A stretch of DNA of 64,000 nt, taken from assembly GCF_037975245.1 (NCBI RefSeq), contig NC_092570.1:9695501-9759500 (forward strand), in the 5' to 3' direction. Below the pieces are notes generated by a model. That model searched no databases. It was not told where the DNA came from and saw only the letters and a program-made list of their open reading frames with translations. Origin of the DNA: Apostichopus japonicus. Lineage: Eukaryota; Echinodermata; Holothuroidea; Aspidochirotida; Stichopodidae. Numbering within the stretch: the first letter of the stretch is position 1; every line of letters starts with the position of its first letter. Positions 5,985 to 52,790 of the stretch are shown one piece after another. The translations under genes were made by a program, and so were the position numbers.

Positions 5985-8900
5985 TTATAATGTAACTTTA
6001 ATATATTCGTAAATTTCCTTGAGGATTTCGTCGCCATCTTGAAAATTAATTCCAGGTGCAACCCATACAGCACCATGGAATGCTGTAGGGTAATGGCGCC
6101 AAGTCACTTCAACGCCAGCTTCCTTTAAGTGTTCCGCGTACATGATCCCGTCATCCCGAAGTGGATCATAACCCATTGTTATGATGTACGCTGGTGGAAG
6201 ACCGGACAAACCTCTTCTCAAAAGTGGGGTTAATCTTGCATCTTGAAATAAGTCTTGTTTGGCATCCCATATAGGCGATTCACTGCCCGACTCTGGTACC
6301 GGTATACTAGGCGGAATAATATAAAAGTTGTCGTTCCGAAACTGGTCAGGTAGTAACTTATGTGATAGTCTCTTCTTGTATAGATGACTATCTCTAAACG
6401 TTTCTGCTATGTGTTTGTTAGCTGAGAAACTTCGAATAATGTCATCGGTAGTATCGTTTCCATATAAATGCATAGCAGAGTATAGAGCCATGGTGTCCCT
6501 AGGCATGACCCCTCCCGTGCCGAAGTCGTGCTCATACTTTTGGTAAGATGGCGTATTTAGATCAAGGATTTGTAACCAAGGGTAAATCAATATTTGAAGT
6601 TTGAGATCCGGTATCGATTTATCATCGGTAATCGCTTGCGACACAGTAGCCGAGAGGTACCCTCCAGCACTATCGCCACCAATCCCGATACGGTTTACAT
6701 CAACATTGTACTCCTTGGAACGCCTCATGAACCACTTGGTGGCTTTAAGAGATTCTTCAAAAGGTATCGGAAAAACACAATCTGGTGGTCGTTGATAGCT
6801 AAAACAATAGAAACAGTATGCAAATTATAAAACAATGACGTAAAAACAACATAAATGGAACATTATTATTAAGGGACATTATCATCGTCATCGTCATCAT
6901 CATCGTCATCATTGTTATCATCATCATCATCTTCATTGTCATCATCATCGTCGTCGTCATCGTCGTCGTCGTCGTCATCGTCATCGTTATCGTCATCATT
7001 GTTACTATTATTATTATTATTATTATTATTACACTCACTCTATGGACATCACAACAGCATTTAGATTCGCTGAGAGCTTCCTCGTCAGACCATCGTAGTG
7101 CTCTGAAGGTTAATTAAAAACGACAAATGTTCTTTAACAAAAGCAATCCAAAAAAATCTAAGATATGTAATTGAGTAAACTGGTACATTTGCGTAGTTTC
7201 TCATCTAAAATCGCTTCTGTCTTATAACGTTTTGAACCTGTCGACGGTGGGGTATGGCTCGTAATCAAGAAAATAAACTGATTATTTTGTTTAAACGATT
7301 GAATTATTTCGAGCACGTTCATCACTGACTACCTGCTTAATATCAACTCATAAATGGGAATAGCTCAAACAGGACATATACATTGAAAGAGAAAGTATAG
7401 CGGTGAACATGTGTGGCCATTATCTGACCAAAATTGTTGTGCAAAATACTGCAGACCTTTAAACAAGCATTAATTTAGTCTTGCTCGTCAATTTAAATGA
7501 GATTTTTAAATGAGTATTTGAATGTTTTCCAATAAATGGACTATTTTTAATTACTCTGTCTGTCGTCTTTCAAACAGATTTTGGGGGGGATCTTCTTATT
7601 TAAAGAATGGGATAGCTTGAAGGTTTCTTTAACAAATCGGGGTTGGGGTGGGGGTTGTTGTCATTAAATATCATAAATTATGAAACATGATACTTTCTGT
7701 TTCTTCCTTTCATTTAACTGTACTTCAATCAGTAATGATTGAATTATATTATCCTACCAGCGTCAAAAAGTGCCAACCCGCCGCCATGTATATAAATAAA
7801 TCCAGGGAGTGGCGGTTCATCTTCTGACCCTGGTGGTTGGTATATGTGAACTTTGACCCCATCTGCGATTACTTTAGTCAGTTTCACTTCGGTGGCATAT
7901 GATGTCCCTGACGGTAGAAACATTCTCAATGCTGTTAAACTATCCCTGAATCGTCGAACTCTCGTTGCTGGAGAATCATCAAATAAGGAACGGATTGCAA
8001 CCTGTCAAATAAGAAGGATTGTCCGAGTGAATCTGGAAAGTCCAGATGAATTTGGATATTTGACGGTTGAAAGAGGAACCCTATTTTAAAGGAATAGATA
8101 AATTACAGAGGAACATAATCTAAGCATTCTAGTGAAATTTGTACTTAATTCCGATATACCGTTTTTGAAATATTGAAAGTTGAAGTTATCTAATATTCTA
8201 CCAAAAGTGAACTTGAAGCAAACAGGTGTGACGTCATAGTTGCACACTGACAAATAATGTTTTGTTTTTTCTTTATTCTTCAGTCTATTGATTTGACCTT
8301 GGATTGGATAGGGTTACTAGATTGTGTACAGGGGATTTGAAGTTTATAAAATACCAATACCTTTGGTACATTCACATTATGGATGCATGCAATTGTGGAG
8401 TATAAAATTTGGCGTAACTTTTAAAGGAAAACAAAACATTATTTATCAGTTTGCAACATTAATGACGTCACACCTGTTTGCTCCAAGTTCACTTTTGGTA
8501 TAAAGGTGGCAACTTCAACTGTCAATATCTCAAAAATCGTACATAGGAATTGAATGCAAATTTCACTAGAATGCTTAGATTATGTTCCTCTTCAACATAT
8601 CAAAAAGAAATTTTGACCTGGGCTATTCTTTTAAGCATGCGATGAAATGTGCATTCAGTTCCTACGTATCGTTGATCATTTCCGACTAATTTGAGGTTCA
8701 CTTGAATCCAACAGGTGTTGTGTCATTGATGCACGCTGGTTTATTATGACTATGAAATGTACATATGTCTACCTATAAAGTTCATTTATGTTACAAACTG
8801 TCACAATTTGAACTAACAATATCTCGTAAACGCAGTCATGGGAAATAAATTTACATCTGGAATTTACTGTTTAAGAATCTCATTAAAATGTGTCGTCGGA

Positions 8901-9705
8901 TATCGGTGGTTTATTCTCTTTAATTAGCGTGCTTGAATGCAAATATGTGATTGTTTTCTCTTGTATATTCTAGAGGTTAAACGTTCATATTATTTATTCA
9001 ACGTAACCAAAGTCCAAACTAAAAATATGTAGGCCTATCTTAAAAAAGCATTTTATATTTAAGTGCTTCATTAATTCAAGCAATTGAATGTGTCACGGGC
9101 ATATATGATGCATGGCTGTAGGGTAGGGGAGGAATATGGCGTGCTGACGGGTTGGCAGCAGGTGAGTGGGCGGGGTTGGGGGTTGGATAAGGACTAACGT
9201 GACCTTAAAGCGGCATCATGCGCAAGTTGCGTGACTTGAGTCGAATGTACCAAATAGCTCGCACCTTCAGTCTATATATAGGCTTCCCCAACCCCCATTA
9301 CAATTAAAATAAAATAAAAGAGTTCGGGACCCAGAGAGCAAGTAATGGAAAGAGATGTGGAGAAGACGAAGATGAAGGTGGAGAGAGAGAGAGGTGGAGA
9401 GAGAAAGAGAGAGAGGGGGGGGGGGGGTGAGGGGGTATGCGCCACTGATTCTAGTGTGTTTCGGCTAGACATGAATATGACACTGTCTCCTATACTGCAC
9501 ACACAGTTGTAAGCCACATAATACTATATTCAATATGATAACTTTCAATATTCGTACTTACCATATTCAGGAGAAATTTTTGGAAAGCTACTACCGCCCT
9601 GTATTTTTGAGGTTCATTAATGTCCGATGGTACCGGCACATAAAACAAGTAAGCCACATAACCTCCCACTGCCAAAAGGAAGATGCGACGGCCCGATAGG
9701 AACAT
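5985..9705 (-). CDS. Arylacetamide deacetylase-like serine hydrolase, four exons
   Basis: Exons (minus strand) are 9562-9705, 7758-8001, 7039-7102 and 5985-6798, all with GT-AG introns and matching phases. They total 1266 nt and 421 aa, close to vertebrate AADAC/NCEH1 (about 400 aa). The start is the first ATG, with A at -3 and an in-frame TAA upstream. A short N-terminus with a membrane segment (residues 8-23, IFLLAVGGYVAYLFYV) is followed by an alpha/beta-hydrolase fold-3 domain: oxyanion-hole HGGG at 120-123, nucleophile in GGDSAGG (Ser194), acid in YDPLRDDG (Asp362) and FHGA (His392). The Asp-His spacing of 30 equals human AADAC. By family this is a type II ER-membrane esterase or lipase with a lumenal catalytic domain; the substrate cannot be predicted. 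Intron 1 holds a foldback element and intron 3 a trinucleotide repeat. All catalytic residues are intact, so it is probably functional. No promoter motif was clear. Confidence 0.93.
6870..7030. repeat. Trinucleotide repeat filling intron 3
   Basis: Degenerate ATC/GTC/ATT triplets cover most of the 240-bp intron between exons 3 and 4 of the hydrolase gene. They begin about 8 bp from the 5' splice site (GTGAGTGT, then ATA/ATT units). Confidence 0.95.
8090..8630. mobile_element. TTAA-flanked foldback element in intron 1
   Basis: A 541-bp element bounded by TTAA (8086-8089 and 8631-8634). The ends read AGGAATAG and CTATTCTT, with long imperfect inverted arms (about 8105-8270 against 8440-8605) that share AGAGGAACATAATCTAAGC. 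TTAA duplication points to a piggyBac- or Kolobok-type source; no transposase is encoded. A truncated relative lies at 61076-61385. It sits in intron 1 of the hydrolase gene. Confidence 0.8.
9361..9427. repeat. GA-rich tract ending in poly-G
   Basis: Purine-only AGAG repeats followed by a run of G, upstream half of intron 1 of the hydrolase gene. Confidence 0.85.
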
Positions 9706-11939: not shown

Positions 11940-13494
11940 TATACAATGTATGTAATCATAATTAAAGAAGTTAAGAAAGATAGAGGAAAAAGGTAAAGTA
12001 ATAAAGAACAACAAAATTGTTACTAGTCATCTGCAAATATTATTAAACAATAAAGAACACAGTCAATCTCATCCATGTCCGCACGTGACACTTGTAGGGG
12101 TAGGGGCTCACTCCATCTCTAGACACGCTCGGCCGTCTGTCCGATCCGGGCACATTATGGCCTGGTGGCGGAGGGGGGCATCTTATGACCAGGCGTTAGT
12201 CACGCCCACCGAAACCCAAAGGCCCTGTATAGAAATTGTGAAGGTTTATGGTTTCGATGATAATCGTAACCTATGCATTCATGAATGCGGAGAGTGTGTG
12301 TGCGTGTGCATGCGTGCGTTTGTTTTGGTATCTGACCGAGGACTTGAACAAAAGAATTTCAGGTCCTCGGTTGTGATGTCTAAAGAATCACCACGTCCTC
12401 GGAAGAATTCTATTGTATGGGGTATTGTTAAGTTTAGGGTACGTGGATTTGAACAATGGAAAATACAATGGGGTCCTCGGTCTGACTGTAATACAAAATG
12501 GGTGTGTGTGCGTGTGTGTGCGTGTGTAAACACAGTATCTCAAGAAAGGGAAGCTTGGACCAATCTAATATTTGGTATGTAGTTGGTAGACGTTCAGTAC
12601 AAAATTTTATTGAGGTCAAAGGTCAGTTGGAGTCACCAGACGCCAAACTGTGGAAACCTTGTTTTATAAGCTACCATATCTCCCACAGACCAGCCTATCA
12701 GATAACATGTACATTAAGCCTCATACGAATAGGAGGCTATTGACATTTGGAAATGAGCATATGGGCATCCGTAGAATCTAAAACTGAAAACACGAACATA
12801 TTTGCATTGGCTTCAACGTGCCGCCTGGAAGCCTTATTTTGCTTGCAGAAACGTGTACTTTGTAGTACAGCGGTTCTATTGGACGTTTTTCGTCGTTATT
12901 TCAGGTTGGATGTAGTTTCGTTGTGACCAGGCAGCGTTTATGAAACTTTTAACAGTTCGTCTAGTAAATTTTTTACTATGACCAATCTCAATGCGAAATA
13001 ATTGTGTAAAACGTTCTAACTTTGGCAGTGAGTTCACGAGCTTTTGTCTGGATCGGCTGTTGATCTCAATTTGTGTAGTCTCTTCCACCAGTTTTAGCAT
13101 AGCTAGGCCTTAAAAGTAACGTTCGACTTTCGTCACGTTTATGATTATGGGACAACTTGAACAAACCTGGCTTGGCCTGTGAGGAAGTTTATGTTGTCTA
13201 GGCCAGCAACGGTGGGGTAGGATAGGGTTCGTTAACACAACAACGTGAAGAATACCAGTCAGAATACCAATTCACTTAAGATGGCAAAACATCTCCTTCA
13301 TTATTTCTTAAGGCATTTTCCTACTGGCTATTAGTCATAATTCGCAAAACAACTTATGGAGTTTCGAGACAAGTTTGCTGTTGTTGCTGCTAGGATTTTT
13401 GGAAGATAGATGCTCTTACAACCTCAGATTTTCATTGTTTTAAGTTTAAATTTCATACTGCAAAGTAACTTTACCTTCCAATGCGCAATTACGT
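11937..13494. other. Non-coding, no recognised gene
   Basis: A 165-codon open frame (12085-12582) crosses GT-rich simple repeats and three copies of GTCCTCGG; I do not regard it as a gene. A perfect AGGTCA-A-AGGTCA direct repeat lies at 12613-12625. Confidence 0.5.
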
Positions 13495-14480: not shown

Positions 14481-17400
14481 GATGTCTCCGACATCCTATC
14501 GAAGGCTGAGGACTGTCAAGTGAGTGGCCTAACTTACATATCAAATATAACCAATACAATGCGGGGCTCAACACCAAATACAGAGAGGCAACAATAAGTA
14601 CACTCGAATCATTGATGCTATAAACATAAATGAAATATGTTTCCAGTAAATAGCATAAGTGATAATGCTCACATCTAGCCGACGTGGCAGTCAATGATGG
14701 ACACCTTGCAGCAAGTCTCAGCCAGGTGCTAATGGCCCTAACCTAATTACTTGCATGTTCCTAATAGACACCTAAATGCATAAATACTAAAATAATATAA
14801 CACCATAATAAGACGTGCATATGCATAGCATAGGTACCACCAAACAGTAGCAAATCTATTTAAGGTCAACCTCTGACAAGAACTGTCACCAAGGGGACTA
14901 AAGAACATACATTAGCCCAAATAAGGAGATAAATGAACTAGCTGATCGGCTTAAGGCTCATTACCGGAAATCACCAACATTACTCGATAACGACTAAGAG
15001 AACAGGTGTAAACAACTTAGTGACGTACTCCCAGAGAATGAGCTCATACACAAAGAGGTGAACACATGAGTCATCTGGTTGCAGATGATCTCTCTCTCTC
15101 TCTCTCTCTCCACCTCTCTCCACCCAGGTGGAGCTTAGCCCTTGAATCTGTGGGCTAATGGGTTCTGTGATGGTTTACTCTTCGTGCTTACACATGGAGG
15201 ACAAATCAATGTCATTCCAAAAAATACAGGCTTAGTCATGACGACTTCCTGTACTGAAGTGACAGGCCATTGAACTCCATGAGCACCAAGAATTTGTAGA
15301 TGGAACCTATCACAGGGAGGGGGAATCTAAATGTGAGTAATTCCTAATTTACCAAAACATGAGGGGTGCTATACAAGACGTTTACTTGTATTCTACTTAA
15401 CAGTGAATTTAGTGCTATCGACTCTCGTGAAAGGCAAACATTGCAAATCGTTTCGTAAGATATTCACCTCCCATTTTTGCTAAATGTTTGGATTTGGAAT
15501 AACAAATACGAAAAAGCGATTTTCTACTTTTCCTTTCTGACAAAAGGTCGCCTCCCAATGACGTATTGATGAGTTAACTAAAAGTAACCAGATGAATGCC
15601 AAATTTGCAGAAAATGCCTTTACAATCATGACTTCATGGTGTGTATCCGGGTCAAGGGGCCTGTATATCATGAACCCGGATTTGTTGACGAAGGCGTTTG
15701 GAATTATCACACCATTGTGTGAGCCGGATACGGAGTGGAAGGGGTTAAGGTATGGGTTGCGCTTCTTTACTCATAGCAGACAAGTGGGAACTGTCTAAAG
15801 CTGCTTTTCGGAGATTTTGTTGTTGTCAATTTTAACCAAGTTTATATAGTATGAATAAACAAGAGTCTCAAATAGCTTCTTAGGTTGCTTTGGTAAGTAA
15901 AAATAAAATATGAGTAATTTATGATTTAAAACAAATGGCCCTGACAATTCGCATGATAGTGTACAATACAAATTTGAAAACACAAATAGAACATTGAAAT
16001 ATTGTCACGCGTCTCCTGCCTCGAGTCCATTTGCCTTTGGACTTTGGACTTGTCCTCAAATATGTCGCAAGTTCGGAATGTCCTACACGTACACGGAGTT
16101 TGGGAAAGTGTCCATCAATTTTCTAGATTCTCTCCGATATTGCAAGATGGCACACTTTGTGTAATTCATATTTAAGACAATCAATTTTAGTTGCTTGCAG
16201 CCGTTAGATCTACAATAAATTATTTGGCAAAACTATAGAGTGACTGAATATATTATGTTGACGTGAGACTGCTTGAAAATTGTCACTGTTGAGGCTACAT
16301 TAGTTTGGAATATTACGTATTGAGGACAAACCGCACATGCGTTCGATTTATGCTTTGCTTCAGGAACAGTGTTTTTTTCTGTGGTTTTTTGTTGTTGTTT
16401 TCTTCCAGTAACTCTTCATTTGTTCGGTCTCTGCGAGTTAGTCAAGATTTAGGCAAAGACGTATACTACGTCGTCTGTATTGTGTGATTGTCTTCTATAG
16501 ACACATTAGTACCAACACAATTCGTATAACAGTCATGATCAAATCTATGATGGGGCTTTTAACAATATGAACTGATGAAAAAGTATTTGCAAGTTATGTA
16601 TTGTTCATGTCTAAAAAATAAAATATAAAAAAAAAACTCGAAGCAAGAGGTAATATGTAAGTGCTGATTTTGTTCCACAACTAAAGCAAGGTTCGAGCTT
16701 TACTTGAGTGTAATTGCTACTTATAAGGTGTTTTATATTAGCCGCATTCTGAAATAGTCAATAGATATTTCATATGAAAGAAGAAAATGAACTATAGTGC
16801 TGTTTAGAGGTCGTTGATTATCTTTATAATTTCCTCTGTATCTTCTATCTACAATATTTTTGGTTGCTTGATCAAGTCATTTGACATACTTGATAAGTCA
16901 TCCACGTGGGCGTTGATTTCCTTCTCAATGTCCGTGTGGTTTGCTTTTTTTTCCTGGGTGTGGGTTTGGGGGCTTAGGGGGGTGGGAGGGGGAGCATTGT
17001 AAATGAGTTCAAGTCAGTGTGCGAATAAGTATGACTCGAAATCATAATCCGTAACGCTGATGGACCGCAAATTAGTTGCTAGGTATCTAGGCTTGGGATA
17101 GGACGCCTACGTGACTCATGACGTCATAAGGTCAAAAGTTCAACTAAGCTTTTTGGCCGATACGGCCGATACGCATAATGCTGAATGGACAAATATGGCT
17201 GTTATCCTGAAACCCATGTAAGAGATCAGACTCTAACTGTCTACAGTAATTATCTTAATTTAGGTTTAACGCAGGAAGAAGTCAAAGGTCAAACTTTGCC
17301 AAACTTGTGTACATACTAAAATGACCGAAACTGTGTGGTTTACTTCTTCCAAGTGAAATCTTTAATGGATATTTTGGTACACGGCTAAATTTGATTGCTT

Positions 17401-21156: not shown

Positions 21157-23169
21157 CTAAATGCTTATAGCATTGGGAACACTATTTGGGTTCAGATATG
21201 TATATGGTACAAACCTAAATTGATTTTCTCTATCAATAGAGGCACTTATTCGGTTCAGCTTTTCACGAAACCTTTGCAATGCACTCTCACTGGCCGGATC
21301 AAAGAGATATTTGACCTCGAAGTTCCCCAGTGAATTTGTTTCTCGAGTACTCAGGATACGAGAAAAAGTGAGGATATCGATAGTAGTTTCTTTTGAAGGA
21401 AGTGCATTGTGGATGTCATCTTCAGTGCGTGGTACTTTGCTCGTGATTGGAGCACCTTGAAGATAACTTGGGTAATTTGGAGGAAAACCATAATCATCGT
21501 ACTGTGAAAAATTGCATGCTGCATGGGCAACACTACATGTGAAAATGACACAGGTCAATGTGTCTACAAGTTGATCTGCATTTTTAAACTCACCATCGCC
21601 AGGAATTCCTGGTACCCCGAAACCCCCATCAGAAATTGACATCGACAGCGTTCGTGCCCAGTCTTGCAACTCGTAATCGCCTGTGATCAGATCAGCGTTA
21701 CCGTAGAAATTGTTGACGATTTTGCTGACGTACTCCTTGATGGCTTCGTAAGTGGGCATCGCATCATCTCGATAGTAGTAGTTTGGCAAGGATTGAGGAT
21801 CGTCTACTCCTCTCTCCTTCAGGTCAGCTGGTAGATTACCCTGGACATCCAGTCTCCAGTTTTGAAGCTGTCGTGCCATAAGGTCAGTCATTCCTTTGCT
21901 TCCAACCGTCAGAGCGCTGTCTACCCATCCGCCTGGCTCGAGAAGAACACTGATCCCTATCTTATTGATTGCCAGCAGGTACAAGAAATGAGGAGCAAGG
22001 AGGCGAAACATTGGGTGTGATGGCGAGAGTGACCGATGTGCTGCCAGTGCGAATGGCTCCATTATCAGATGGGTAAATCCAAGATGTGTACAACTTTGAT
22101 GAAAATTAGAATCGGCATTGTTGAACCACATTTTGGCCAACAACCAGGTGTAGAAATCGTCGGATGGCAGAAAGACTGGGTTGCTTTCTGATGGGTCTTG
22201 GAAAAGCTGTATAGCCACTGGAAGTAACTTTTTCGCCCCATTCACAAAAAATAATGCCAGTGGAGCTGCGATAATGCGACCCTCAGCGCATGGCAGATCC
22301 TTCATCACTTTGTAGTCAACGTAGTAAAGTCTGTTAGCTTGTATAGCCTGACTTATGGTGAGACCCTCGAGTAATGGTGACAGCATATCATCCGTCACAG
22401 CGAAATTGTCCGGTATCTTCCGACATCTTCGGATTTGTGTCGGATTGCAGTGATTCAGTCTTTGCAATCCAAATGATTCGTCAGACTTCCACGTTTCGCT
22501 TCCGAGCGGCTTTGTAAGGACATCATTGTAGAGGTGAAAGATCTCGTCATAATTTTCCCACTTGCCAGTGAGAATGCTTTCAAGTTTCAAATGAGCAGAC
22601 AACTTTATTTTCATGGATGCGATATCCCACAAATACTCGTTGGAAAACTTTTCGTCGGATGGCAAATGTTTCAGTTGAGGCAACCAATTTGCTATGTACA
22701 CTTTCGTCTGATATTGCTCCTTCTTAATCTGTACTTCATGTCGACGATGGTTAGGGTTTGGGTCATCTTGAGGCAAAACAGTGTCAAATTCTGTGATTCG
22801 AAGCTTCTTGTTGGCGGTAATCCAGCGATGGATTGGAAACACAAAATTTTCTCCGCTGCTACCGGCCTCCCGGATCGTCAGCCATTCGACGTACCAATCA
22901 TCCAGCAATCCGGCAGAATCCCTCCACAGCTCAATAGCTACGATTTCCTTAAACTCCGGAGGAACTTGAATTTCAAAGTCGTCCAAAGTTCCGGCCTCAA
23001 AGTCATTTTGCCAGAGTAAGCTCAATGGAAATTCTTTAGATATGTCCCCTTTCTGGCTTACCAGTGCTAACTTAATATTGCTATCTGTCCCGGCTCCTTT
23101 TTTATCGCCGGTTTTTACCTCAACTCGCATGCTTGGACCATGAACTCCATGCCCACAAATGTTGCCCAT
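21157..23169 (-). CDS. Animal lipoxygenase, intronless, predicted R-type
   Basis: 670 aa in one uninterrupted frame. The start is the first ATG, with G at -3 and +4 and an in-frame TGA upstream near 23218. An N-terminal PLAT domain (about residues 13-117, with GTDSNIKL and NDFEAG loops for Ca2+/membrane contact) is followed by the catalytic domain. The signatures WKSDESFGLQRLNHCNP and YRDDAMPTYEAI are conserved. Non-haem iron ligands are all present: His362 and His367 in THLGFTH, His549 and Asn553 in AHAACN, and the C-terminal Ile670. Lipoxygenases add O2 to polyunsaturated fatty acids such as arachidonate. The Coffa position (AINKIGIS, Gly405, equal to Ala410 of human 5-LOX) is Gly, which predicts R stereochemistry. 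Vertebrate ALOX genes have about 14 exons, so lack of introns suggests a retrocopy or lineage-specific intron loss. The frame has no lesions and keeps TATA and CCAAT boxes, so it is probably expressed. Length is usual for the family. Confidence 0.96.
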   Translation of the reverse strand: MGNICGHGVHGPSMRVEVKTGDKKGAGTDSNIKLALVSQKGDISKEFPLSLLWQNDFEAGTLDDFEIQVPPEFKEIVAIELWRDSAGLLDDWYVEWLTIREAGSSGENFVFPIHRWITANKKLRITEFDTVLPQDDPNPNHRRHEVQIKKEQYQTKVYIANWLPQLKHLPSDEKFSNEYLWDIASMKIKLSAHLKLESILTGKWENYDEIFHLYNDVLTKPLGSETWKSDESFGLQRLNHCNPTQIRRCRKIPDNFAVTDDMLSPLLEGLTISQAIQANRLYYVDYKVMKDLPCAEGRIIAAPLALFFVNGAKKLLPVAIQLFQDPSESNPVFLPSDDFYTWLLAKMWFNNADSNFHQSCTHLGFTHLIMEPFALAAHRSLSPSHPMFRLLAPHFLYLLAINKIGISVLLEPGGWVDSALTVGSKGMTDLMARQLQNWRLDVQGNLPADLKERGVDDPQSLPNYYYRDDAMPTYEAIKEYVSKIVNNFYGNADLITGDYELQDWARTLSMSISDGGFGVPGIPGDGEFKNADQLVDTLTCVIFTCSVAHAACNFSQYDDYGFPPNYPSYLQGAPITSKVPRTEDDIHNALPSKETTIDILTFSRILSTRETNSLGNFEVKYLFDPASESALQRFREKLNRISASIDRENQFRFVPYTYLNPNSVPNAISI

Positions 23170-23260
23170 TGCTGCTTTATTCGGAACAAATATCACCGTT
23201 AAAGTACACCGGTTGTTTCAATGCACCGACTGAATGAGTCTTGCACCCCGAAAGTAGTAG

Positions 23261-29704: not shown

Positions 29705-30060
29705 TTGTTCAGGGCCAAGGCCTTCTCACACGACTTTACAACTTAACCCTGGTCATTGGTAACTTGTCACACCTACACACCAAAGTGTGTACAATTCAAT
29801 CTATCTCTCCTGGGGCACCACAGTGCACCACAACCATGTGTCCCCCGGGGGACGTCCCATAGGGTGCAGCCACAAACCGGCGCAAACAACTATATTTACA
29901 AGTTACCTCGCAAGTCCCCATTTATACATCTGTGTGAAGAGAGGAAATGGAGATAAAGCGCCTTGCCCGTGGACACAACGTAATGATCTGGCCAGGGCTC
30001 GAACCTGTAATCCTTAGAACGCAAGTCCACTGCCCACTTGACCACAACGCCCTCCACAGG
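29705..30060 (-). mobile_element. tRNA-derived SINE
   Basis: Read on the minus strand, a tRNA-like head ends with the B box GGTTCGAGCCC. It is followed by a conserved central block (ACGTTGTGTCC, GGCAAGGCGCTTTATCTCC, ATAAATGGGGACTTGCGAGG), as in the SINE at 51665-51962, then a diverged tail. Boundaries are approximate. It interrupts the ~235-bp array. Confidence 0.65.
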
Positions 30061-38867: not shown

Positions 38868-38965
38868 AACCTCTGGACATACAATCAGCGTCCATAGCAT
38901 TATTGGTTAGGGTGTCCGCGTACAAAGCGGGAGGCCCGGGTTCGAATCCCGGTGGAGGTTGGAAG
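38868..38965 (+). mobile_element. tRNA-derived SINE head or tRNA pseudogene
   Basis: An A-box-like TGGTTAGGGTG at 38904-38914 and a perfect B box GGTTCGAATCC at 38939-38949 lie at tRNA-like spacing. The T-arm CCGGG/CCCGG pairs. The 5' half does not form a proper acceptor stem with GGTGGAGG, and a T-run follows within about 20 bp. It is better explained as a SINE head than as a functional tRNA. Confidence 0.6.
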
Positions 38966-45682: not shown

Positions 45683-46977
45683 TTTACAATTACTCACGGA
45701 GCACATAATTAGGCGTTGACCGGTGGATGTCACAAATATATCTCCTTTGTGTAATCTAATCTCGATCCTTACATGAGAAGGGCTTCACATCATCTCTCCA
45801 TTAGCTTCGTAACATTATAATACTTTTAGCATGTGTTACCTTTGCCCTGTGCTAAAAGAAATGTTACATACAATATCACAAAGTATTGCGCATTGCTAAC
45901 ATTGATAGTGTAACCGATGAAAAATACTTTTAAGAAATATGCATATTTCTTACAGTTCTTTAAAGAAGTTACCGCTTAACTGCTAAAATCAGCGTGTAAA
46001 CAAGAACACTAAGAACGTATGTCGCACTAACATAGTAGTTACAGTATTTGCCTTTTTCCAGCTGATCAATTAATACAACCAAGATAGATGCATATACCAT
46101 ACTCGTAATCCGATATATTTTATTATTTCATCCTCAGGTGTTGAATTTCGAAGAAAAATCTCCTTACATCGTCGGGTGTACAGCGTTCCTGACCCTAATT
46201 ATTTTAAGCACATTGACGGGAACCATAAAGTGCTTAGGTATATAATAAATTAATGAAACTGGATTAACTAGTCGTAAGGACATTTACCGTGCATATTTGT
46301 TCATCGTAGTTCACAGCGCCGTCGCCCTACTTTTTTGAGAAAGGGACACCGGAGAACCCCACATAACACAGAGGGCATGAATTTTGTTTTTAGAAATTAC
46401 CTGTAATCTTCCTTTATAGAGGTAGCATACGCAAGTTAACCTGTTCATCAACATCACCTGATTACACATCTCATTAATGGGGAAACGATGTGTGTGGGAA
46501 TATTCCACACAATAGGCATGACAACCCATATCCTCCCCATTGGTGACGTCATTTGAAGTAATCCTATTTAACATATACGGCGAATCCCTGATATTGTACA
46601 GTCGTGTGATGAATGTTTACATAAAGGGAGATCCCAGCCGACTATGAGAATATATTCTGCATGTAACTAAAGAGTGTAAATATGCCAAATAAAAACTACA
46701 ATACCATGTAAACATTTACAAACCAATTTCAATGTGACAAGATTGTCCATTCGGCTTTTTCATATTATAGAACTTTAGCTACCACATTGCCCTTTTTTTC
46801 CTTATTTAGATGGCGCCTTGTGATCCATGGTGGAATTGACGGATACAGTCGGATGCCAGTGTTTTATAACTGCGCAAACAACAACAAGGCCCAGACGATG
46901 TTTGTGATGCATTCAAGATGGGTGTCATCGAGTTCGGGTTACCAAAGCAAGTACACTGAAAAAATAAACTAGTCAAT

Positions 46978-47225
46978 ATTGCCACGGACTAACGTTAAAT
47001 TAGTTTGTAACGTTAGTCAATGCACACGAACTAGCAAAAATCTTCGTTTCATCGCTGCTTCTTAGTCAGTTTACACTGACTAAGGAAAATATAATCGCAG
47101 CTTAGTCGGTGGCGACGGACTAAGGTATTTTAACCCATGGACTAAGAACGATACGGACACCCGATTTACGCCATAATCGTAGCTTAGTCGGTCGGTCGAC
47201 GGACTAATGTATTTTAACCCAATTC
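46978..47225. repeat. Left subterminal TTAGTC repeats
   Basis: About nine GACTAA/TTAGTC words in both orientations, including GCTTAGTCGGT twice and GACGGACTAA three times. They are probable transposase-binding sites by analogy with CACTA elements. Confidence 0.8.
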
Positions 47226-48840
47226 GATTCACTTCAATTTGGAAACCGAGAGGCAACGGCAGCTTGCTGGACTTGGCATAGTTTCATACGATCACTCTAA
47301 GCAACTTTCAACCGTAAATCACCCAAGGTCTTTAGAAGAATGGAGGTATTAACTGCCATCATCGGCCTACCTGTTATTCCTTTAACTTGAAGGTAAAATT
47401 AAAGTTAATTGTTAGGCCACTGGCACTAGTACTCATGTATTATGGTTAGTGTAACGCTACCGTTGTCACGCTGGCTTTTCGCAATACACAAGTGCAATGA
47501 CAGTGAGTAGCCTATAGGCTTCTACTGGGTACTGCAGTGCATTCTCAACACTAAAGTGTGCATTCTAAACACCATGTGTTATGTGTGTATTGGGCTAGAC
47601 TGAACAGTGGCACATAATCTTCTAATTTATTCCCAAACAAATGCTGGAACTATAAGTCTCAATAGTTTATTTGAAGTCTACACTCATTTGGTAAAGATTT
47701 CCTGTAATATCCCATGTGAATCTAAATGGGTAGGCTTTGTGATATTGAATAAGCAAGGCTAGACCTTCAAACGTACAGTCACAGTAGGCTGAACAAATTA
47801 TGTTGGCTAGTCAACGGTATTATATGTTGCGAGCAGTCAGGATGCACGCTTCAGTTCTATTTAACCTTTTCATTTATCATTTTTTAGTATTTAATTTCCG
47901 GTCACGCTCATGAAACAATTGCGACATTCCTTCACGGTCGACTTGTTTACTGTAAGAAGTATTAACCGTTTTTTCTCAGGAAAGCTTGATAGTCTGAAGT
48001 TATTATAACATGTGCTTTTAGTATACTGCCAAAAGAGTAAGTTGTTGTATTTGTATTGATATTTTATGTAGAAGTAACGGAAAATTTAGTATGTTTAGTT
48101 TGGTCTATAATTGCACGTTTTTTTTCTGTCCAATGTAGTGCAGGGTTCACTTGCGCGAATTCAAATTATTCTGTTTATGTATATGTATATGCATCGATTC
48201 GTAGATTATGATGTTTTTTGACATTAATTTGTAATTCAAGCATATCTGTTTAGTAGCAAAGTTTAAAGGTTAAGATTAATTAGTTTTCTCTTTTTGATCC
48301 TAGATAGAATGAAACTCATTGACGTAAATAATAGATCAGATGATACAGTTTAACGCAGTTGCTAAAACTCTGGGTATTCTCTAGTCTTCGCCGGTCCATT
48401 ATATACTTTAGTACTACTAGTAAGACTAAATCAAAACGACCGAAAGACAAACTTAGTGTAACAAAGTATTGATTCTCCTCTAGCCTAGGTCTAAACAGGC
48501 TTGTTATGTGAGCAAGCAAAATAACAACTAAAAACGATTAGGCCTATAAATAAGTTGGCTCAGTGCATTTCTGTTTCTAAAATTTTATATTTTTAAAGAT
48601 CATAAAAACAAACAAAGATTTAGCCCATGTTTTATTGTCTCTGTATTCTGGGCATTTGATTCTGGTTGCAATGGTGATGACACTCTCGTTCAAATTTTCA
48701 GCTTTATACAGTCTGCTTCAAACTTTGGGATTGTTTTTTGAGACTATAGTGGAAGCAAATCTCACATAACTTTGTGGTGACAACTTTATTTATTTATTTT
48801 TTCAAATGATGAATACTTTGCTGTTTCTTTTTTCCAGCAG

Positions 48841-49036
48841 GAATTGAAAAGCCAAATATCTAAGTCAAGGGTGAGGTTTCCTGTGATGTACGACACCAGT
48901 GTGGAGGCAACAACAGAAGAGGAGAACTGTGTTATATATGGCTTAAAGACATGTTTTAAGATGATATATTGGTACCCTTCGCAGAACAAAAGAGTTTATC
49001 CAAGAGTCCAAAAAGTAAAGGAACAAGTACCATAGA
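48841..49036 (+). CDS. Possible exon inside the transposon, unrecognised
   Basis: An open stretch of about 64 codons follows a pyrimidine-rich CCAGCAG acceptor and ends in TAG after KVKEQVP. It contains VMYDTSVEATTEEENCVIYG. A possible donor AAAGTAAAG lies just before the stop. I do not recognise it. It may be part of a short gene carried by the transposon, together with 49190-49340 and 50675-50755. Confidence 0.3.
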
Positions 49037-49185
49037 GAAAAAAGATGGAAGAGTGAGTTTAACTATTGTACCCAACTGTTTAATGATATTAAAGATACTT
49101 TTCATAACCTGTTTTAAAAAAAAAACAGTCTAGTATATCATTTACGTGCAAGCTTCATAAGTTTGGTCAAATTTTCACTGATCTG

Positions 49186-50422
49186 TAGAGCGGGAGTCCA
49201 GAGGGTTTGGTTAGCTGGGAAGGTAACCAATTGCCTGGTACATCACAATGTTCACAATGCATTCCTGTATATGAAACCTGACGACTGGCAAACCGACTGT
49301 GGTGGATGTGGCTGGGAGAGCAATTTTAAAGTCACCTAACAGCTAACCTAGATCAGTTTTCATGGTAACCACATCAAAGTAAGAACAATGTGTCAGGTAT
49401 GGCCCCAAGAGCAACAAATGGCCATCGCCAGTAATTATTGGTGGTGGGGTACCCCTGCCAGTGATCAACAATTGACCACTCACGGCTGACCTAGGTCAGC
49501 TCATGAGGTAACCACTTGAAACCTACTGGAAAATGTTGGTTAGGACTTCAGATACAAGGGATGGGCATTGCCAGTAATTTTTATTGGTGGGGTACCCCTG
49601 CCAGTAGACCCCCAATATGCCCATCCCCTCATTGACCTAGGTGAGCTCATGATTTGACCAGTTGAAACCTACAGGAAAATGATAGGTATCACTTCATATG
49701 TAAGGATGGGCATTTCCAGTATTTTATATTGGTGGGCCACCACTGCCAGAGTCCGCCCATCCCTTACATATAGAATCCTGTCAATCATTTTCCAGTAGTT
49801 TTCAACTGGTTAAATCATGAGCTGACCTAGATCAATGAGGGGGGGGGGCATTTTGGGGGTCTACTGGCAGGGGTACCCCACTAATATAAAATACTGGAAA
49901 TGCCCATCCCTTACATATGAAGTGATACCACTTTCCAGTAGTTTTCAACTGGTCAAATCATGAGCTCATCTAGGTCAATGGGGGATGGGCATTTTGGGGG
50001 TCTACTGGCAGGGGTACCCCACCAATAAAAATTACTGGCAATGCCCATCAGTTGTACCTGAAGTCCTAACCAACATTTTCCAGTAGGTTTCAAGTGGTTT
50101 CCTCATGAGCTGACCTAGGTCAGCCTTGAGGGGTCAATTATAGATCACTGGCAGGGGTACCCCACCACCAATAATTACTGGCAATGGCCATTTGTTGCTC
50201 TTGGGGCCATACCTGACACATTGTACTTACTTTGATGTGTTACCATGAAAACTGATCTAGGTTAGCTATCAGGTGACTTTAAAATTGCTCTCCCAGCCAC
50301 ACCCACCACAGTCGGTTTGCAAGTCGTCTGGTTTCATATACAGGAATGCACTGTGAACATTGTGATGTACAAGGCAATTGGTTACCTTCCCAGCTAACCA
50401 AACCCTCTGGGCTCCCGGTCTA
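49186..50422. repeat. 1.24-kb imperfect palindrome inside the transposon
   Basis: The left arm starts GCGGGAGTCCAGAGGGTTTG and the right arm ends in its complement; the centre is near 49805. The arms carry repeated GGGGTACCCCTGCCAGT units spaced by about 130 bp. Each arm's outer part encodes nearly the same peptide of about 47 codons (RVWLAGKVTNCLVHHNVH through the terminal DCGGCGWESNFKVT stop), with about three substitutions. Confidence 0.9.
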
Positions 50423-50674
50423 TTGGGATCATTATTAACATGATTAACATAATTATTAAGCTTTGAAAAATAACTTGGTGTTATGCTGTGCAAAGCTAAT
50501 AATTATTTGGTAAAGCTGCTATTCCTGGCTTATAATTTGAGGGACCTAGATTTAAATGTATACTTCCCAATATGTTATAAAATTTTAATGTAAATGTATG
50601 TTTATGATAATGTGAGTTATCATGTGCTATATCTGTATCTGTGCTTACATGTATATCATATTTTCTGTTCACAG

Positions 50675-50755
50675 GTCAATTACGGTGCAGATTTTGGCTT
50701 CCTGAAGACAAGTGGGAGGCCATTTGTAGTTAGGAGAAACACTCTTTGTTCGTGA
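50675..50755 (+). CDS. Possible terminal exon inside the transposon
   Basis: After the acceptor TTCTGTTCACAG, 26 codons (VNYGADFGFLKTSGRPFVVR and onward) end in TGA. AATAAA follows at 50900-50905. Unrecognised; low confidence as a gene. Confidence 0.3.
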   Translation, partial: VNYGADFGFLKTSGRPFVVRRNTLCS

Positions 50756-51044
50756 AGACTTAACTGGTGTCGATTTGGGGTACCACTTTAAAACGAAAGT
50801 CATGAGGAACCCTTGCCCAAGATTCAACTTTGCATTATTGTGCAGTGCTATACTTTTGCGATTCATGTTTGATCCATTAACTTGTCTTAACTTTGTTGGA
50901 ATAAAATCATATTTTTAGATTTTTGTTAACAGTGATTTCTTCCCTATCTGTCGAAAGTCAGCCTTTGTAGACATCAGAAGTTTTATCAGAAATAAATACT
51001 GCCAACGTACACATTATTTGTGTTTCTTCTGCTCTCTTTTCTTT

Positions 51045-51420
51045 CAGTGATGCTAGTCAGTGAAACTAGTCGGGTTTAATTCTTTCAGTGATTCTAGTCA
51101 GTGCAACTAGTCAGTCGATACCGACTAAGAAAGGTTAGTCGGGAGAGGCACCATCCTGACTAATGTAAAACCTGCTATAAACTAGTCGGTGGCTCATATA
51201 AATTAGTCGGTAAAGACCGACTAATGTCACCAACTAATGTAACTGACTAATATACATTTACCGACTAAGAAATTGTTGATCGACTAAGTTGACGGACTAA
51301 GATGACCCACTAAGAAATCCAACTGACTAAGGAATAAATTAGTCGGTATAGCAACTGACTAAGGCTATGTTAGTCGGGAGAGGCACCAGATGGACTAACG
51401 TTATGTTAGTCGGTGAACCA
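51045..51420. repeat. Right subterminal TTAGTC repeats
   Basis: About 20 TAGTC/GACTA words, commonly TTAGTCGG and GACTAAG. Two copies of TTAGTCGGGAGAGGCACCA lie about 240 bp apart. Confidence 0.85.
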
Positions 51421-51664
51421 ATTTAAGTTTTCAGTGTACGATCGAACAAGGGCGGGGGGAAATGTTCTTGGTTGCTCTTTTATGTTGCACCATCCGTTAC
51501 AGGGAGGAGTGTCCACAACCAACGAATTGAACGATGTTGGAGGGATTTGTTTACAGTATGCTATATTAAACAATTACTAACATCACTGTTTTTTACTAAA
51601 CTAAATAAATACACATATACATTTGGTGGGTTGAAATGGTATACATGAGAAGCTAACCAAGATA

Positions 51665-51962
51665 ATAATAATATTAGGCATTTAGCTACGCTATTCATGG
51701 TGAACTATATCACAGCGCTTACAAGTTATATTACCCCTGCTCAATGATAACCTGTCCCAGAGACAATCCCGCCAGGCGGCAGCAGTTATATACTGCGTCC
51801 AATGACAAGTTACCTCACAGGTACCCATTTAACCCCTGGGTGGAGAGAGGCAAGTGAGATAAAGCATCTTGCCCAAGGACACAACGTAATGAACTAGGCA
51901 GGAATCGAACCAGCAATCCTTGGATCACGAGTCCGACGCCTTAGCCAATTGGCCACCAAGCT
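51665..51962 (-). mobile_element. tRNA-derived SINE with target duplication
   Basis: Flanked by CAAGATA at 51658-51664 and 51963-51969. On the minus strand it has a tRNA-like head (GTGGCCAATTGGCTAAGGCG, B box GGTTCGATTCC), a conserved centre (TTGGGCAAGATGCTTTATCT, CTCCACCCAGGGG) and a tail ending with ATT repeats. It lies in intron 4 of the integrase-core pseudogene. Confidence 0.85.
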
Positions 51963-52654
51963 CAAGATACAGTGCAATCAAGCCAACATTGAATATTAAG
52001 TTAATAATGTAAACCAATATGTGTAAAAATAATACAAAACAATTTTCTTTACCAATTTCTGTAGATCATACGTGAGCGAACAAACTGTGAGCTACCGTTA
52101 AAATGTATCAAACCTCATTACCCGAATGATATGCTGAAGCTGCACATGTATCCGTGTGTGGGCCTTCGCTATATGTTAAAAATATCAGCCGACAGGAAAA
52201 CTTTGGAGCAAAATATTTTTAAAATTCAGGTTTTGGCACAATGAAACTACAGCTCTCCTAATATATATCTTTGTCATGTGCCACTGACCGCCAGGTTCTA
52301 GCCCAGTGATGTTCAATACCTTCCAAATGACATTTATTAATTAATTTATCTCCTACAGGGATGCGTCAGTACATTTTATAACTTATTCTGCAAAATGGAA
52401 GACGCAGAGGTTCTTTCGTGTGACGAAGAGGTGGATCTGGCAGCGCTTCATTTCGTATTTTTGCCAATAATAAGGGACCATCTGGAAACTTTCCGACAAA
52501 GTTTCATACAACACAAGATCCGCACGGAAGGAAACAGAGTACCATTGCAACTCTGGCCACCAGCAGTTGATGACGGATTTCATATAGACTTTATTGAAGA
52601 GGTGAATATGGCTTCAAACACACGCACACATATATTTATATATATATTAGGTGC

Positions 52655-52790
52655 GTATCCAGGATTTTCTAACCCGGGGCGCGAATTACTATCTAAGCGG
52701 AGCGCCACCATTGGTTGGCGCGCAACGTACAAGAATATTTCTGGTTTTGATACCCCCTAGATCACCGGAAATGCCCTTTGTTCTTAAAGC
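52655..52790 (+). mobile_element. Fragment sharing the hAT-MITE core
   Basis: ATCTAAGCGGAGCGCCACCA followed by GGTTGGCGCG and CACCGGAAATG matches the core of copy D. No second terminus or target duplication was found, so the boundaries are uncertain. Confidence 0.55.

Follow-up and report, generated by a model that had tools for sequence, protein, structure and literature searches.

A young transposon family of probable CACTA/EnSpm type with subterminal TAGTC arrays and a TA-preferring 2-bp target in Apostichopus japonicus

Results and discussion

The feature described here is a 4,483-bp insertion in an exon on contig NC_092570.1 of Apostichopus japonicus, located in a window of 64,000 nucleotides (the whole stretch of DNA that was analysed). 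It belongs, with a probability of roughly 93%, to the non-autonomous cut-and-paste DNA transposons of the CACTA/EnSpm type (CMCT group), as a member of a young family with several hundred occurrences of its left end in the genome. The assignment to this type is based on the CACT ends, the arrays of short words, a large coding element and a tnp2-like protein, while the mobility of the element is evident from empty sites, target duplications and near-identical copies. CACTA elements have long been described mainly from plants.

Boundaries and parts of the element

The element spans positions 46954-51436, as first located in the window, with flanks reading GTA on the left and TAC on the right. 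Its CACTG-type ends lie within a host exon, just as the first-pass annotation of this DNA had stated, and its parts are as follows:

46954-46962, + strand: left terminal inverted repeat, CACTGAAAA
51428-51436, - strand: right terminal inverted repeat, TTTTCAGTG
46952-46953: left copy of the target duplication, 2 bp, TA
51437-51438: right copy of the target duplication, 2 bp, TA
46970-47206: left subterminal array, 10 TAGTC/GACTA words, four tight convergent pairs among them
51054-51411: right subterminal array, 20 TAGTC/GACTA words, five tight convergent pairs among them
48781-49032, + strand: longest open frame inside the element, 84 aa, without a Pfam match above cut-off
49186-50422: long palindrome, arms of 184 and 259 nt that are 95-96% identical, TA on either side

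The perfect inverted repeat at the termini comprises 9 bp and, together with the TA flanks, is insignificant by itself, since 103 comparable pairs (all four bases used) occur in the window, many of them repeat-derived. The case for an element instead rests on the arrays together with the empty sites and the further copies. No transposase was found among the 10 longest of the 54 open stretches of the element, and a Pfam search of the same ten gave nothing above family cut-off (top match FAINT, E 0.0036); the 84-aa frame is possibly a decayed exon, though this is a guess. The palindrome belongs to the family, as it is covered in the scored full-length copies. It is 1.24 kb long and many-layered, and appears rearranged or enlarged in longer copies (e.g. 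L092, L099, L132 and L133). Two TIR-like TTTCAGTG words were also seen at 51042 and 51083, beside and within the right array.

Elsewhere in the window, tRNA-family matches are found at 38888-38960 (+) and 51890-51962 (-), the latter perhaps a SINE as it lies partly inside a stretch 80% similar to 29898-30028. PLAT and lipoxygenase domains share one open frame at 21157-23217 (-), for which the top solved-structure match by sequence is an 11R-lipoxygenase; the leading matches of this kind are enzymes from animals.

Subterminal words

The TAGTC/GACTA word is strongly concentrated at both ends, with 10 occurrences in the left 290 bp (dinucleotide-shuffle mean 0.63, maximum 4) and 20 in the right 397 bp (mean 1.59, maximum 6), counts that none of 300 shuffles reached at either end. 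The middle of the element holds five, which is at chance level (shuffle mean 6.02), and 400-bp sliding stretches starting outside 46500-51500 (50-bp steps) contain at most three words each. The ends hold 30 words when the five-base core is counted; of the strict six-base form TTAGTC/GACTAA, for which about 30 had been estimated earlier, the element has 25, 24 of them within the ends. In all 30 end words the base after the TAGTC core is A, C or G, followed mostly by G (25/30) and T (26/30).

The words are present in both orientations, as in CACTA/EnSpm elements, and form nine convergent pairs with spacings of 15, 17 or 22; this pairing is mildly above chance, being equalled in 327 of 20,000 orientation shuffles. 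Folded as single strands, both ends do better than shuffled sequence (z about -4.1 in each case). Searches of phage records gave no match, and two pattern scans of viral contigs returned 2 and 69 stretches which look like chance occurrences, since no 400-bp stretch starting at a word exceeded five words in these 71 loci. In one CACTA paper, TTAGTC occurs within a satellite monomer (PMC8978399).

The interrupted exon and its empty paralogues

The host exon encodes part of an rva_4 integrase core (PF24764), and this integrase-like gene lies in pieces between 46802 and 52760:

46802-46953, + strand: interrupted host exon, left part, rva_4 integrase core (PF24764), profile 19-54
51437-51561, + strand: interrupted host exon, right part, rva_4 integrase core
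52341-52760, + strand: open frame, next rva_4 part, profile 114-181

When the flanks were joined with one TA, they matched rva_4 profile 51-115 (E 5.2e-11). A joint keeping no TA scored best over a longer stretch (72.4 bits), whereas at the junction itself a single TA was superior (43 vs 29.8 bits). The no-TA joint was overturned by the paralogous exons, which carry a single TA. The genome was found to contain three uninterrupted paralogues of the joined flanks (80-82% identity; the C16 copy in two pieces), all with a single GTAC at the insertion point, and the C13 paralogous exon reads exactly CAAGTACGATCG. The empty site predicted beforehand from the host exon was thus recovered letter for letter. 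Few close paralogues of the interrupted exon exist in the genome (5 candidates).

The reading frame of the host exon is disturbed already upstream of the insertion. Set against all three paralogues, and leaving the insertion aside, the window exon has small changes in length and lacks one stretch, and it is for this reason considered a decayed copy. The insertion would accordingly have interrupted an rva_4 exon that was already decayed, and the locus is best described as a recent insertion into an old integrase-like pseudogene, not as a gene carrying a 4.5-kb intron.

Other copies and the target duplication

The genome (672 Mb, 35 contigs) was scanned for further copies, and 33 of 661 first-look candidates were scored (30 loci and L107-L109). 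Before duplications were counted, L095 was set aside, as its flanks are identical to those of L092 and the two were taken as one insertion in a duplicated segment, as was L101/L110, where no right end turned up within the retrieved stretch. All 31 countable independent copies with both ends have a matched 2-bp duplication, which for L088 and L089 requires the final element base to be read as changed. The duplicated dinucleotide is TA in 21 copies, CA in three, TG in three, TT in three and AA in one (TG/CA 6, TT/AA 4). The target is therefore 2 bp long and TA-preferring, neither fixed as TA nor GTAC. The first-pass annotation had left TA and GTAC open and favoured a 2-bp TA target; the length and the TA at this site stand, while GTAC and a restriction to TA do not. 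The duplication length falls within the 2 to 5 bp of CACTA/EnSpm elements, as do the CAC..GTG (CA..TG) termini within the CMC/CMCT pattern. The left CACTG is intact in 28 of the 30 loci (altered in L081 and L089) and in L107-L109, and the right CAGTG is altered in L079, L088 and L089 and was not found for L101.

Nineteen full-length copies are 97.5-99.9% identical in pairwise comparison, with 9-12 words in the left end and 18-21 in the right. A left-end 21-mer (up to 3 mismatches) matched the genome at 385 places, compared to 59 for the reversed control. A sample of another twenty exact left ends was taken, all of them on contigs C1 and C2: 16 follow the element for almost the full 800 bp with 94-97.5% identity, and two at about 90%. 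One of the twenty is an internal-deletion derivative (L120, G000:C2:8014554-8015373) in which element position 665 is joined to 4106, and in another, L130, only the first 266 bp are common with the window element. The search for same-ended copies and their flanks, proposed at the outset, hence yielded copies sharing one fixed target length.

A 17.8-kb relative with a transposase-like gene

L130 is the left end of a 17,834-bp element flanked on either side by CT. This element matches the window element over the left 266 bp at 89.6% and the right 478 bp at 92.7%, the remaining matches being array words and short pieces, and it contains an open frame of 815 codons. The 815-aa protein matched Transposase_21 (the CACTA tnp2 family) in Pfam with E 0.0019 and 17.9 bits, below the cut-off of 28.6, and gave weak C2H2-type matches near the N-terminus; NCBIfam returned nothing and solved structures nothing informative. 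Its motifs run in the order D386, CRFC (406), HYLVH (615) and E639, and D, D, CxxC, HxxxH, E is the order described for the CMCT group (CACTA-Mirage-Chapaev-Transib) in PMC12730594. Among 5000 residue shuffles of the same stretch, 320 also give CxxC followed by Hx3-4H, and the motif order alone is for this reason modest evidence. With the three paralogous empty sites, this element supplies what had been sought as an empty site or a coding copy, and the EnSpm/CACTA-like reading of the first-pass annotation is now supported by copies, 2-bp duplications, empty sites and a coding relative with the same ends.

Transposase-like places were scored for 55 of 452 candidates, down to about 31% identity, and most have open frames. 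Three further places are 99% identical to the 815-aa protein (two nearly full-length, one in two pieces), and in two of these the same array of the left end lies 4.0-4.1 kb upstream, in one case with its first three bases altered. The lineages in the genome lie at 99%, 61%, 45%, 38% and 31-36% identity, and many of their frames stay open over 800-940 codons, which suggests that CACTA-type elements spread in several bursts. A second gene may, as a guess, have its exons in the 17.8-kb element at the open stretches 7690-8061, 8847-9275, 12146-12628 and 15657-16058.

Could the 4.5-kb family be moved by a different, unseen transposase, with the 17.8-kb element not being its partner? What the two share is confined to their ends, where identity is about 90% and lies below that among the 4.5-kb copies. 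However, they have both termini and both arrays in common, and the same words recur in a more distant transposase lineage, and we consider this explanation unlikely. A non-autonomous Tc1/mariner element, for instance of the DD38E/IT kind with a CACTG start and TA insertion, was a serious rival, given that DD38E/IT elements of bees are reported to start with CACTA or CACTG, and Tc1/mariner elements to duplicate TA (PMC8472432). Its probability is now very small, as ten of the 31 duplications differ from TA, the frame in the relative with the same ends, which matches Transposase_21 weakly, is 815 aa long compared to about 340 aa for mariner (PMC8472432), and intact IT elements are given as 1.5-1.7 kb in PMC7731502. 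Equally improbable is a Chapaev-type element, for which the target would be GTAC (4 bp) and the ends ACTGAAAA. It was a similarly serious rival, since GTAC fits the flanks as well as TA in the window alone and Chapaev is described with CAC..GTG ends and 3-4-bp duplications (PMC4079192). The flanks of the other copies, which speak against both rivals, match over the 2 bp adjoining CACTG and not over 4 bp.

Returning to the CACTA/EnSpm-type reading, a transposase from the coding relatives would act in trans on the 4.5-kb elements. The TAGTC(V)GT words, many of them in convergent pairs, are predicted to be binding sites through which the two ends are joined, and this pairing would precede cutting. 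The enzyme would then cut at CACTG and insert into a 2-bp target, with TA preferred. The words may be read either by the zinc fingers of the transposase or by the product of the putative second gene.

Occurrence of the word across transposase lineages

Upstream of the 61%-identical transposase (L137) lies an end reading CACTGAAAACATAAACTAGTCAGT, whose roughly 240 bp hold 14 words; beyond its first 38 bp, just word-sized pieces of it align. Upstream of the 45% transposase (L138), CACTGTAAACATTAGTTAGTCAC is found with 7 words in 200 bp, a stretch that looks like an element end; for both places one end was seen. The 38%-identical transposase has no TAGTC array in the 2 kb examined. The TAGTCVGT word thus accompanies transposases of 61% and probably also of 45% protein identity. 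The strongest hint that the words probably do something is that they are kept while the intervening DNA has changed. A tentative extension, which we regard as possible but doubtful, is that selection maintains TAGTCVGT as a recognition site in the diverging transposase lineages of this one genome, and that the transposase itself reads it through its two N-terminal C2H2-like zinc fingers. If true, this would be a one-protein alternative to plant CACTA elements, in which a separate protein, TNPA, binds the subterminal words according to PMC2613891.

Comparison with known elements

The soybean Tgmt* element (plant CACTA/En-Spm), as described in PMC2613891, resembles the present family in its CACT ends and short inverted repeats, in subterminal words that are asymmetric, direct and inverted, and hairpin-capable (4 left and 24 right, compared to 10 and 20 here), and in the size of the large coding element (20.5 kb vs 17.8 kb). 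It differs by a 3-bp instead of a 2-bp duplication, CACTA instead of CACTG, and other words, and the tnp2 domain is barely recognisable here, unlike in Tgmt*. Among animal elements, the TRC elements, e.g. SmTRC1, are alike in having 2-bp direct repeats (7 of 14 SmTRC1 copies), a Transposase_21 protein and animal hosts, but their inverted repeats begin with CCC (54 bp in SmTRC1), in contrast to CACTG and 9 perfect bp here (PMC1636069). Duplications of 2 bp are also reported for the tunicate element ENS1_Cis and for CMC-NA; CMC-NA elements are short MITEs, and the passages of PMC6004678 that describe them mention no word arrays.

Three fungal elements, compared here by published description (PMC12730594, PMC12810828), have CMC-type or related transposases. 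ESTA and CNEST make TA duplications, and CNIRT6 starts with CACTG as here but makes a 3-bp duplication. CNEST, whose transposase groups with unclassified animal transposases, starts with CACGG and has 33-bp inverted repeats, unlike the present family. The ends combined with a 2-bp TA target had initially not been placed in a named family; short targets with CAC..GTG ends are, however, already published for members of the CMC/CMCT group (PMC6004678, PMC12730594, PMC12810828), so the family is probably new but of a known kind.

One genome here holds, side by side, near-identical copies, open transposase frames, several lineages and well-defined subterminal words. How such words change along with the proteins reading them, and why a 2-bp TA is preferred, thereby becomes testable.
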